Origin: Algimonas ampicilliniresistens
Lineage (GTDB): Bacteria > Pseudomonadota > Alphaproteobacteria > Caulobacterales > Maricaulaceae
Length of the DNA stretch: 64,000 nt
Reading direction: 5' to 3'
Assembly (NCBI RefSeq): GCF_030159955.1
Contig: NZ_BSNK01000001.1
Span: forward strand, 744,001-808,000
Positions 12,327 to 15,284 of this stretch are shown here, in pieces (positions within the stretch are counted from its first letter, which is position 1; the number at the start of each line of letters is the position of its first letter). A program made the position numbers and the translations under genes. The notes beneath the pieces are model-generated. The model was not told the DNA's origin. It saw only the letters and a program-made list of their open reading frames with translations, and ran no database searches.

Positions 12327-12337
12327 TCTATGTGACT

Positions 12338-13711
12338 ATGGCACGCACGCTATTCGACAAAATCTGGGACGCGCACCGCGTTTCGACCCCAAAATCAGAT
12401 GAAGCGTCAGGCGAGGATTTGATCGCGATTGATCGCGTTTTCTTGCATGAACGCACGGGCTCTGTGGCGCTGGAAAGCCTGATGGCGTCAGGGCGTGAGC
12501 CCATCGATCCGACGCGCGTCTTCTGCACGATGGACCATATCGTCAGTACGGATGAAGGCCGGGGTCGCAATGATGCCCGTACCCCCGGCGGCGAGGTCTT
12601 TATCACCGCGACTCGCGCCGCCGCGCAAAAGACAGGGATCAATCTGATCGACGTGGACAGTGCGGATCAAGGGATCGTCCACGTCATTTCACCCGAACTG
12701 GGTATCGCTCAGCCCGGCCTTACGCTGGTCTGCCCCGATAGTCATACGTGCAGCCAGGGTGCGCTCGGCGCGGCAGCTTGGGGGATCGGCTCGACCGATG
12801 CAGAACATGCGATGGCAACAGGAACGCTGCGCCTGAAACGCCCGCCGCAAATGCGGATACGCGTGAATGGAACGCTAGCGGACGGTATCACTGCTAAGGA
12901 TCTAATTTTACATATTATCGGAACGCTCGGGGCGGATGGAGCGAAACGCTGCGCCGTCGAGTTTTGCGGTGAGGCCGTTGAAGCGCTTGGGGTCGAGGCC
13001 CGGCTGACCCTGTGTAATATGGCGGTCGAATTTGCAGCGTTCACAGCCATTATTGCCCCGGACGAGACGACGTTCGATTATCTCGAAGGTCGGCGTTTCG
13101 CTCCAAAAGCCGACGATTGGGACGCCGCGCTCGCCTATTGGCGGACGTTGATATCCGACGCTGACGCGACATTCGATTTTGAGCATGTATTCGATGCAAA
13201 AGAGATTGGTCACATGATCACGTGGGGCACATCACCGGGGCAGGCCGGTCGGCTCGATGGAACGGCTGACGCCTCTGATTATATGGGCCTTAAAGCCGGT
13301 GAGGTGATTGAGGGTCTGCCCATTGGCGGCGCGTTCATCGGGTCCTGTACCAATGCGCGGATCAGCGATCTGCGGGCCGCTGCCAAAATCTTACGCGGGC
13401 GCAAAGTCGCGGACGGTGTGACCGCGATCTGTGTGCCCGGATCAATGGCAGTGCGACGAGACGCCGAAGCCGAAGGGATTGACCAAATCTTCCGCGATGC
13501 GGGGTTTGAATGGGGCGAGGCAGGTTGTGCCTTTTGTTTTTATGCGGGCGGGCGCACCTTCGCGCCCGGCACGCGCGTCGTGAGTTCCACAAACCGAAAT
13601 TTTGAAGGTCGGCAAGGACCAAACGTCCGCACCCATTTGGCTAGTCCCGCCGTGGTCGCGGCCAGCGCCGTTGCTGGCAAGATCGCCGCGCCCGGAAACC
13701 CTTCGCCATGA
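12338..13711 (+). CDS. leuC: 3-isopropylmalate dehydratase large subunit-type protein (aconitase superfamily)
   Basis: A 457-residue aconitase-superfamily subunit counted from ATG at 12338 (GTG at 12332 is also possible). It starts MARTLFDKIWDAHRV as LeuC does, has CTMDHIVSTD at 63-72 and CPDSHTC at 132-138, and keeps the three 4Fe-4S cysteines: C337 in GSCTN, and C397 and C400 in AGCAFC. SSTNRNFEGRQG at 416-427 supplies active-site arginines. Such enzymes isomerise hydroxy-dicarboxylates and tricarboxylates by dehydration and rehydration. It overlaps leuD by four bases. It may be the leucine enzyme, but placement in a catabolic block with MmgE/PrpD genes allows a paralogue acting on another hydroxy-acid. 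Confidence 0.82.
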   Translation: MARTLFDKIWDAHRVSTPKSDEASGEDLIAIDRVFLHERTGSVALESLMASGREPIDPTRVFCTMDHIVSTDEGRGRNDARTPGGEVFITATRAAAQKTGINLIDVDSADQGIVHVISPELGIAQPGLTLVCPDSHTCSQGALGAAAWGIGSTDAEHAMATGTLRLKRPPQMRIRVNGTLADGITAKDLILHIIGTLGADGAKRCAVEFCGEAVEALGVEARLTLCNMAVEFAAFTAIIAPDETTFDYLEGRRFAPKADDWDAALAYWRTLISDADATFDFEHVFDAKEIGHMITWGTSPGQAGRLDGTADASDYMGLKAGEVIEGLPIGGAFIGSCTNARISDLRAAAKILRGRKVADGVTAICVPGSMAVRRDAEAEGIDQIFRDAGFEWGEAGCAFCFYAGGRTFAPGTRVVSSTNRNFEGRQGPNVRTHLASPAVVAASAVAGKIAAPGNPSP

Positions 13712-14304
13712 ACCGTCCTTTCACCACCCACACAGGTGTCGCTGCGCCGTTACGCGGTGACAATATCGACACGGATCAGATTATCCCATCGCGTGAGATG
13801 AAGACCGTGTCCAAGACGGGTCTGTCGGGCGGCTTGTTTGCAGGCCAGCGCTACACGACTGGTCGAACCCCAAACCCGGACTTTGTTCTCAATCAGCCAG
13901 ACTATGCGAACGCCACGATCCTCATTGGCGGACGTAATTTTGGCTGCGGTAGCTCGCGGGAACATGCGGTTTGGGCGCTAAAAGAATATGGTATCCGCGC
14001 AGTCATCGCGCCGAGTTTCGGTGAGATTTTCCACGGCAATCTGATCTCCAATGGTTTGTTACCGATCCAGCTAGCCAGCACCGTCATCGACCAACTGCCG
14101 CGCGAGGTCACAATTGATCTAACCGCGCAGACGATCAGCGGGCAGCGTTTTGAAATCGATGCGTCAGCGAAGCGCCGCCTCGTCGAAGGTCTCGACGCCA
14201 TTGCAGAAACCCTGCAAAGCCGGGTGGAGATCGAGGAGTTTCTGGAGCGTGATCGCATAGCGCGACCTTGGGTTTATGAGAGGGTAAAAGGATGTTTCAC
14301 GTGA
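13708..14304 (+). CDS. leuD: 3-isopropylmalate dehydratase small subunit-type protein
   Basis: A 198-residue swivel subunit that pairs with the large subunit just upstream (four-base overlap). DNIDTDQIIPSRE at 18-30 and GGRNFGCGSSREHAVWAL at 74-91 are the family signatures, and VIAPSFGEIFHGNLISNGLLPI follows. Length is normal for proteobacterial LeuD. Its last codons and stop (TGT TTC ACG TGA) lie inside a parS-like palindrome that also encodes the start of the next gene, giving a 13-base overlap. As with the large subunit, it may serve leucine synthesis or a catabolic dehydratase. Confidence 0.85.
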   Translation: MNRPFTTHTGVAAPLRGDNIDTDQIIPSREMKTVSKTGLSGGLFAGQRYTTGRTPNPDFVLNQPDYANATILIGGRNFGCGSSREHAVWALKEYGIRAVIAPSFGEIFHGNLISNGLLPIQLASTVIDQLPREVTIDLTAQTISGQRFEIDASAKRRLVEGLDAIAETLQSRVEIEEFLERDRIARPWVYERVKGCFT

Positions 14305-15284
14305 AACCATGGATGGTCATTGGGCTAATCGCGCTGTCTGCCTGCCAAACGACGAATGTCACCGAGGATGCCCCGGTCAGCGCTGACGTCACTCCTGTCG
14401 TTGACCAAGCTTGGGACGAAGTTCGAATTGGCACTTATAATAATCAGGATTTTGCCAAGCTGTTTACTGAGATCGGCGGGTACACAGCCGTTTATTCCGA
14501 TCCGGCAGTCATGATGTTGCAGCAAGACGGTCATGGCGCGCGCATCATATTGGAAGAAATGCCTATGGGCGCTCCGCAAGCCCGTGCGCCCGATGCAGCG
14601 AGTTGGGAGCCGGGCTGTTACTGGTCTCTGATGATGCGGGCCAAAAATGTGCCGTCGATTGTTGAGGATGCCAAGGCGCTCGGTTGGGAGCCCAAGACGC
14701 CGATCGCTTACCTTGAGTTCGGCCCATCCAAGCTAAATGTTGTTGTGTTGACCCATCAGGCGACGGGCACGCAAATTCAACTTTACGAACGCTTAACAAC
14801 ACCGCTGCCTGAAGGCTATCCAGACTTTGAACGCTTCGGCGTGCCGTTCAATATTATGCAAATGGTCAGTGATCGTGATGCGACCTACCGTTTTTTCACT
14901 GAGCAGCTTGGGTACGAAACCTTTTATCATGGCGAACCTTATGTGTCAGAAGAGCCAGAAATCATGCCGCTTGGCATTCCGGTCGAGTTAACGACAACCG
15001 TGCCCTATCGCGCTTCCATCGTGTCGCCGGTCAAAGGCATGGAAACGGGTCGGTTTGAGATGATCGAAGTGATGGGTGCAGATGCCGGGCTTACGGGTCG
15101 AGATTTCTCTGCGACTTGTACGCGTGAGGCTGTGGGACTGACGGAAGTTCGGTACCGAGTTAAGATTGATTCCCTGAAATCTCTAGCTCTTCTGCCAGAG
15201 GATCGCGCCGCTATTCCAGAGGGACATTCTTTGGTTCAGACCGCGCCAGATGGGGCCATGATCGCGTTTCTACCGCAACAATGA
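14292..15284 (+). CDS. Two-domain VOC-superfamily lipoprotein
   Basis: A 330-residue exported protein. MFHVKPWMVIGLIALSAC is a compact lipoprotein signal with the lipid-carrying Cys at residue 18. Two weak VOC modules follow: one around FAKLFTEIGGYTAVYSDPAVMMLQQDG to LNVVVLTHQATGTQIQLYE, the second around FGVPFNIMQMVSDRDATYRFFTEQLGYETFYHG to the end. Catalytic metal ligands were not assigned. The gene overlaps leuD by 13 bases and the MmgE/PrpD gene by four, so it is embedded in the operon. It is the second VOC lipoprotein of the cluster; periplasmic location of this fold is uncommon. Its 5' end doubles as a parS-like site. Confidence 0.75.
   Translation: MFHVKPWMVIGLIALSACQTTNVTEDAPVSADVTPVVDQAWDEVRIGTYNNQDFAKLFTEIGGYTAVYSDPAVMMLQQDGHGARIILEEMPMGAPQARAPDAASWEPGCYWSLMMRAKNVPSIVEDAKALGWEPKTPIAYLEFGPSKLNVVVLTHQATGTQIQLYERLTTPLPEGYPDFERFGVPFNIMQMVSDRDATYRFFTEQLGYETFYHGEPYVSEEPEIMPLGIPVELTTTVPYRASIVSPVKGMETGRFEMIEVMGADAGLTGRDFSATCTREAVGLTEVRYRVKIDSLKSLALLPEDRAAIPEGHSLVQTAPDGAMIAFLPQQ
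14293..14308. other. parS-like centromere site TGTTTCACGTGAAACC
   Basis: The 14-bp palindrome GTTTCACGTGAAAC is exact, and 15 of 16 bases match the ParB-binding consensus TGTTTCACGTGAAACA. ParB-parS is established for chromosome segregation, and parS sites cluster near the replication origin. The site spans the leuD stop codon and codons 1-6 (MFHVKP) of the following lipoprotein gene. No parA or parB gene is in the window. Confidence 0.75.

Follow-up and report, generated by a model that had tools for sequence, protein, structure and literature searches.

A parS-type palindrome at a gene junction

The stretch of DNA analyzed here (the window: 64,000 nucleotides of the Algimonas ampicilliniresistens genome, C1:744,001-808,000) carries a leuC-like and a leuD-like gene followed by an open reading frame for a putative lipoprotein, and at the junction of the last two lies a 16-bp sequence of parS type. 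Positions within the window are as follows.

12332..13711, + strand: leuC-like gene, directly upstream of the leuD-like gene, identified by profile matches
13708..14304, + strand: leuD-like gene (3-isopropylmalate dehydratase small subunit family; TIGR00171 180.4 bits, NF002458 227.9 bits, PF00694)
14278..14284, + strand: GAGAGGG, plausible Shine-Dalgarno sequence for the ATG at 14292, picked out by eye from the sequence
14292..15284, + strand: 330-aa open reading frame starting MFHVKPWMVIGLIALSAC, putative lipoprotein (lipobox LSAC, by eye)
14293..14308, no strand: parS-type 16-mer TGTTTCACGTGAAACC, 15/16 to the perfect palindrome
14294..14307, no strand: exact 14-bp palindromic core GTTTCACGTGAAAC, read directly

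The leuD-like gene scores over the cut-off of both TIGR00171 and NF002458, and its stop codon (TGA, 14302-14304) falls within the palindrome. The start codon of the lipoprotein reading frame (ATG, 14292-14294) begins one base ahead of the 16-mer and overlaps it, GAGAGGG ends 7 nt before this ATG, and the N-terminus reads MFHVKPW, with the 16-mer touching codons 1-6 (codons 1 and 6 partly). No Pfam or NCBIfam model matched the putative lipoprotein. Compared with the parS palindrome TGTTTCACGTGAAACA, the window sequence TGTTTCACGTGAAACC agrees at 15 of 16 bases, retains the full 14-bp core and departs only in the last (edge) base. The original prediction had described a near-perfect parS, with an exact 14-bp palindromic core and one edge base off, built into the leuD stop, the next start codon and the first six codons of the lipoprotein gene, and both parts of this description are borne out by the sequence and the coordinates of the reading frames. 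The site is an example of a 16-bp palindrome fitted into coding DNA as stop and start; no mention of the reading MFHVK was found in the literature searched.

Of 41 genomes searched, own included, 7 have the lipoprotein. Its ortholog in G015, the best-matching relative, is 67% identical and belongs to the same gene pair, with parS absent: the leuD-like protein there ends RPWVY before the stop, and the lipoprotein starts MGLLTRLLL. The only named ortholog found in one contig scan, in a Hyphomonadaceae MAG (L252), has no such 14-bp core in 9 kb, and its upstream sequence differs. As far as these comparisons reach, the window site appears to be lineage-specific. Because G015 has a close LeuD-like match in the same gene setting (78%) plus a second, more distant one elsewhere (42%), the leuD-like copy in the window may be a paralog rather than the leuD of the leucine pathway.

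Copy number, chance expectation and ParB

Within the window, a scan allowing up to three mismatches to parS returned one further place, with exactly three mismatches (shuffle control, mean 0.14). When Markov models of order 1-4 were trained on 864 kb of this genome, the expected number of sites with one mismatch or none was 0.0005-0.0006 per 64 kb; for the whole genome (3.26 Mb), the expectation was about 0.0006 perfect, 0.02-0.03 one-mismatch and 0.004 edge-mismatch copies, as well as 0.004-0.005 14-bp cores. The genome scan observed 12 perfect, 3 one-mismatch and 2 two-mismatch parS, and the reversed-sequence control of the same scan returned 0. Perfect and one-mismatch copies are thus commoner than chance (12 vs about 0.0006 and 3 vs about 0.03, respectively), and the observed counts rule out a chance origin of the site. 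Among the three one-mismatch copies, the window site is the edge mismatch, and the other two are mismatched in the core.

Five of the perfect copies lie within 1.2 kb (C2:411,072-412,290), among parA, rsmG-like and mnmG-like genes (named by eye; ParB alone was tested with profiles) and adjoining parB. In the parA reading frame, at its 5' end as listed, the site reads GTG-FHVKH; the rsmG-like reading frame has VSRET and the mnmG-like one MFHVKQ. The other 7 of the 12 perfect copies are stray, at about 30, 45, 73, 280, 440 and 520 kb from this cluster and, for one, at 1.43 or 1.08 Mb; five are intragenic and all read VSRET, and the two at or near gene starts read FHVK. The window site is one among about ten stray copies in all.

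A 14-bp palindrome at a start codon occupies the classical position of an operator. With the palindrome exactly at the gene junction, it could be read as the binding site of an operon transcription factor, or as an element of translational coupling, with the likeness to parS secondary. We regard this as improbable: the identical core occurs at parAB and inside unrelated genes, for PBP1C-type, chalcone-synthase-like and AtuA proteins and for a Cys/Met-type PLP enzyme (identified by eye), and no obvious pathway links these.

In Bacillus, 16-bp palindromes termed NBS, distributed along the chromosome arms, are read by the ParB paralog Noc. Two half-site bases, numbered from the G inward, distinguish an NBS from parS (PMC7383237), and the window site has the parS bases. 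Both arms of the core carry G1 and A6, the bases that separate parS from the Noc site under this numbering; a Noc binding site would have A1 and C6 instead.

The genome's own ParB is intact, with ParB_N, HTH and C-terminal domains, and its best PDB match is Caulobacter ParB (6t1f, E 1.5e-61). All eight parS-contacting residues listed for the Caulobacter protein (Q162, G170, K171, S172, R173, N178, G201 and R204; PMC7383237) are identical in the aligned sequence, as counted by eye with a chain numbering offset of 10, which fits T179 and A184 too. The same genome thus encodes a chromosomal ParB with complete domains and parS-type DNA-binding residues, and the part of the original prediction that made the site a ParB target holds up to this extent. 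A second ParB-like reading frame at C2:164k scores 56.5 bits, below the family cut-off, and was considered as a possible reader of the stray sites; G015, in which all three parS lie in the cluster, has a similar weak match. Beside this reading frame, the sample C2:165001-185000 has a GC fraction of 0.617, compared to 0.526-0.581 in the other 40 samples, and is possibly an island.

The edge variant of the window site recurs in other genomes. G027 has just two sites with one mismatch or none, and both carry it; in G037 it stands at a cluster position where G033 has a perfect site; and in G367 and G326, each of the four stray copies with one mismatch is off at the edge. In G350 both one-mismatch sites are mismatched in the core; with two core mismatches there and two in the present genome, one-mismatch copies are therefore not solely edge variants. 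Similarly, the Pseudomonas aeruginosa cluster sites parS1 and parS4 end ACC, sharing the edge base of the window site, and are described as bound next after the perfect parS2 and parS3 (PMC4368675). From these sequence comparisons, the edge mismatch is probably tolerated by ParB, and ParB binding of the window site is likely.

Position relative to the origin

The original prediction had further placed this catabolic cluster in the origin-proximal domain, a claim that the map of the genome contradicts. The GC-skew switch, parAB and the five clustered parS all lie at C2 about 0.405-0.412 Mb. Skew was sampled in 40 segments of 20 kb and in the window, together 864 kb of 3.26 Mb. Its sign changes from negative to positive at the C2 parS cluster and back at C1 about 1.29 Mb; on C1 the samples between 0 and 1.265 Mb, the window among them, are positive. 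The site is 1.17 Mb from the origin cluster, or 1.34 Mb under the other contig order, which is at least 72% of half the chromosome.

Both contig orders are compatible with the GC skew. Order B, in which the start of C1 is joined to the start of C2, yields two arms of nearly the same length, about 1.70 and 1.55 Mb (arithmetic from the skew), and synteny with G015 appears to favor it weakly. C2:245k and C1:255k, 744k and 820k match one and the same arm of G015, C1:905k matches the other arm, and the near-origin matches are opposite in sense to C2:245k; given these mixed matches in arm and sense, inversions have therefore occurred. If the contigs were two separate replicons, their arms would differ greatly in length; the relative G015 is a single contig. 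The sole dnaA-like match above cut-off (C1:59642-61027) is 0.47 or 1.21 Mb distant from the origin marked by the skew, and dnaA was dropped as an origin marker because this match, at C1 60 kb, is away from the skew switch.

In G015, the orthologous gene pair (1.407 Mb) and the parS cluster (0.364 Mb) are 1.04 Mb apart, and the skew changes sign within 0.18-0.32 Mb and again within 1.90-2.04 Mb, such that proximity to the origin fails in the relative as well. That the site belongs to an origin-proximal centromere, as first proposed, agrees with a sequence that is parS and can hardly be true otherwise: the origin markers are 1.17 or 1.34 Mb distant, the window sits inside the positive-skew stretch of C1, the gene pair of G015 is far from its cluster, and the position is conserved neither in G015 nor in L252. 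Even C1 as a separate replicon would be expected to put the skew origin at its end, 0.76 Mb away. Barring contig misassembly, this explanation is already refuted. Many equally good copies spread evenly over the genome, or a site far from the origin and not bound by ParB, had been named as grounds for giving it up; the 12 perfect copies exist and are unevenly spread (five clustered, seven elsewhere), and the site is indeed far from the origin. Far position and copy number refute the origin inference and leave the parS identity of the site intact.

Dispersed parS in this genome, the order and the class

At the orthologous place of the seven stray perfect sites, parS was found in none of one to five same-genus genomes each (orthologs aligned: L001 5, L002 5, L003 1, L009 2, L010 5, L011 3, L012 5), and two of these comparisons are weak: L003 has a single, distant match, and for L002 the genes end differently. 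At four intragenic stray sites, the 16-mers of the orthologs differ from parS at 5 to 14 positions. A parS site with one mismatch or none is present in 34 of 41 genomes (own included). Among the 20 relatives (of 40) with listed positions, 17 keep all such sites within one stretch of less than 5 kb, two of them having just one site; in G004, G016 and G021, one or two one-mismatch copies lie away from the cluster.

To survey the order more broadly, 399 genomes (own included) were searched, and seven have at least seven perfect parS (G333 13, the present genome 12, G350 12, G332 8, G242 8, G367 8 and G326 7), the next highest count seen being 5. Among the other six, five look dispersed and G333 is an array; four of these five are fragmented, with dispersal judged from separate contigs, and G326 is a single contig. 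The array of G333 (C11:47002-48577, L204) packs 12 perfect parS into 1.6 kb; parB is about 4 kb away, and the array reaches the contig end. A thirteenth perfect copy stands at the start of contig C60, and the array may be longer.

In a survey of the class, 13 of 385 genomes (own included) have at least seven perfect parS, with a maximum of 78 in G635; places were listed for G697, G774 and part of G635, and those of G616 and G607 were left out. G635 is an alphaproteobacterium of 1.8 Mb (L253-L264) whose perfect parS, among those listed, fall on many contigs and often in short arrays. One of these (L253) has a 37-bp period, and the arrays are mixed with degenerate copies, for example TGTTTCGCGCGAAACA and TGTTTCTCGTGAAACA; parS seems to be a proliferating repeat in this genome. 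In G774, 18 perfect parS occur on C5, C12 and C34, some of them grouped at 33-34 bp spacing on different contigs.

Another possibility is that the stray copies were carried along at the edge of a mobile element or dispersed repeat. In G367, G326 and G242 the stray parS share a genome-specific extension or motif on one side, with flank scores of 14.86, 15.04 and 15.14 compared to random maxima of 8.60, 10.40 and 10.67, and they look like parts of short dispersed repeats. In the present genome the flank score is 8.79, which 0 of 40 random draws reached, so that some weak sharing is possible; the score barely exceeds their maximum of 8.67, however, and the flanks show no motif in common. Moreover, G006 and G015 align to L001, L009 and L012 without insertion or change of length at the site. 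As an account of the copies in this genome, a mobile origin is accordingly unlikely in our judgment.

The flanks differ among the three genomes. In G367 the stray parS (L165, L171, L183-L188) have a one-sided extension (YGACCG...CGTCGT...), strongest in L183 and L185 and also found at the cluster sites in L177. In G326 all five stray parS (L189-L193; one edge-mismatched) are flanked on one side by a AAACANGAACA-like extension, and the three origin-cluster copies are without it. In G242 a TCAA...TACGG-like motif stands at similar distance on one side of L170, L176, L201, L202, L203 and L182.

Two genomes of genus g21, G350 (8 stray perfect copies) and G332 (4), share two pairs of sites inside orthologous genes (L174/L197 in G350, L175/L169 in G332). 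The shared sites are identical at 16/16 bases in a surrounding 1.2 kb with 69% and 70% identity, and, with the site itself counted, 11 of 1146 and 16 of 1173 aligned 16-bp windows match exactly. Sites kept intact amid about 70% identity suggest that some intragenic stray parS are under selection. Six stray sites of G350 and two of G332 are unshared, from which most stray sites seem to turn over, at a high rate. The conservation in g21 is no evidence for the window site itself.

Several known systems bear on what such a site could do. In Caulobacter crescentus, five strong parS within 5 kb lie about 8 kb from the origin, and extra parS clusters away from the origin disturb segregation, being best tolerated within about 500 kb around ori, disfavored mid-arm and tolerated to a limited degree near ter (PMC5815017). 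Like Caulobacter, the present genome has 16-bp palindromes of the same class, a homologous ParB with the eight contacts identical and sites inside genes; unlike Caulobacter, it has stray full-consensus copies at 0.03-0.52 Mb and beyond 1 Mb. Hyphomonas neptunium, probably of the same family as the window organism (judging by L252, a Hyphomonadaceae MAG), also has a perfect-consensus parS, bound by ParB in vitro, but the two parS reported are both upstream of the parAB operon (PMC6650430). P. aeruginosa does have ParB-bound parS outside the ori domain (parS5-parS10), described as weakly bound, with two mismatches (PMC4368675), whereas the present genome has seven perfect copies outside the cluster and the window site has an edge mismatch only. 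No description of perfect parS dispersed across an alphaproteobacterial genome was found in the literature searched, to which the comparative parS survey of Livny (2007) may add.

Taken together, we consider it probable that the 16-mer is an ectopic, dispersed parS. It would nucleate the organism's own chromosomal ParB at a distance of some 1.2-1.3 Mb from the origin, and would have arisen in this lineage between two genes, at a spot where the palindrome was able to double as stop and start codon. A ParB dimer would bind the two half-sites, as expected from established ParB biochemistry, close as a CTP clamp and then slide for some one or two kilobases across the leuCD-like genes and the lipoprotein gene; Caulobacter ParB in E. 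coli spreads at most about 2 kb from single sites (PMC5815017). Such a small ParB island would take no part in the first, ParA-driven movement of the origin. Together with the other stray sites, it may make up a secondary pattern along the arms in which ParB, and possibly SMC, is loaded; the island could load SMC or dampen transcription of the operon, a role either useful or merely tolerated.

Because mid-arm clusters are disfavored in Caulobacter (PMC5815017), a site in this position would be expected to be costly unless it is weak or the lineage differs. The copy could instead be young and selectively neutral, a palindrome reached by drift as a convenient overlap of stop and start, which ParB may bind and on which nothing depends; this overlaps with the reading as an ectopic parS, and the two are not mutually exclusive. 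The absence from G015 and L252, the one base short of consensus and the cost of mid-arm clusters in Caulobacter (PMC5815017), by which a harmless site may be a weak one, all agree with neutrality, set against a chance expectation of about 0.005 14-bp cores in the genome and seven further stray perfect copies, and we rate it at somewhat short of an even chance.

The single site in the window is best understood as a further case of a known kind of parS, and the dispersed set of perfect sites as a new form of it. The seven out-of-cluster copies in this genome and the five dispersed-looking genomes of the order suggest that the constraint to the origin was relaxed or turned to use several times. 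On a broader and more tentative view, which we hold to be possible rather than probable, the centromere may be dispersed in several alphaproteobacterial lineages, with perfect parS repeatedly gained along the arms and some of them selected; ParB would then act as a chromosome-wide loader or organizer, and the window site would be a junction-embedded member of this set. Lineages whose parS are dispersed can be set directly against those in which they are clustered, and what confines centromeres to the origin thus becomes testable.
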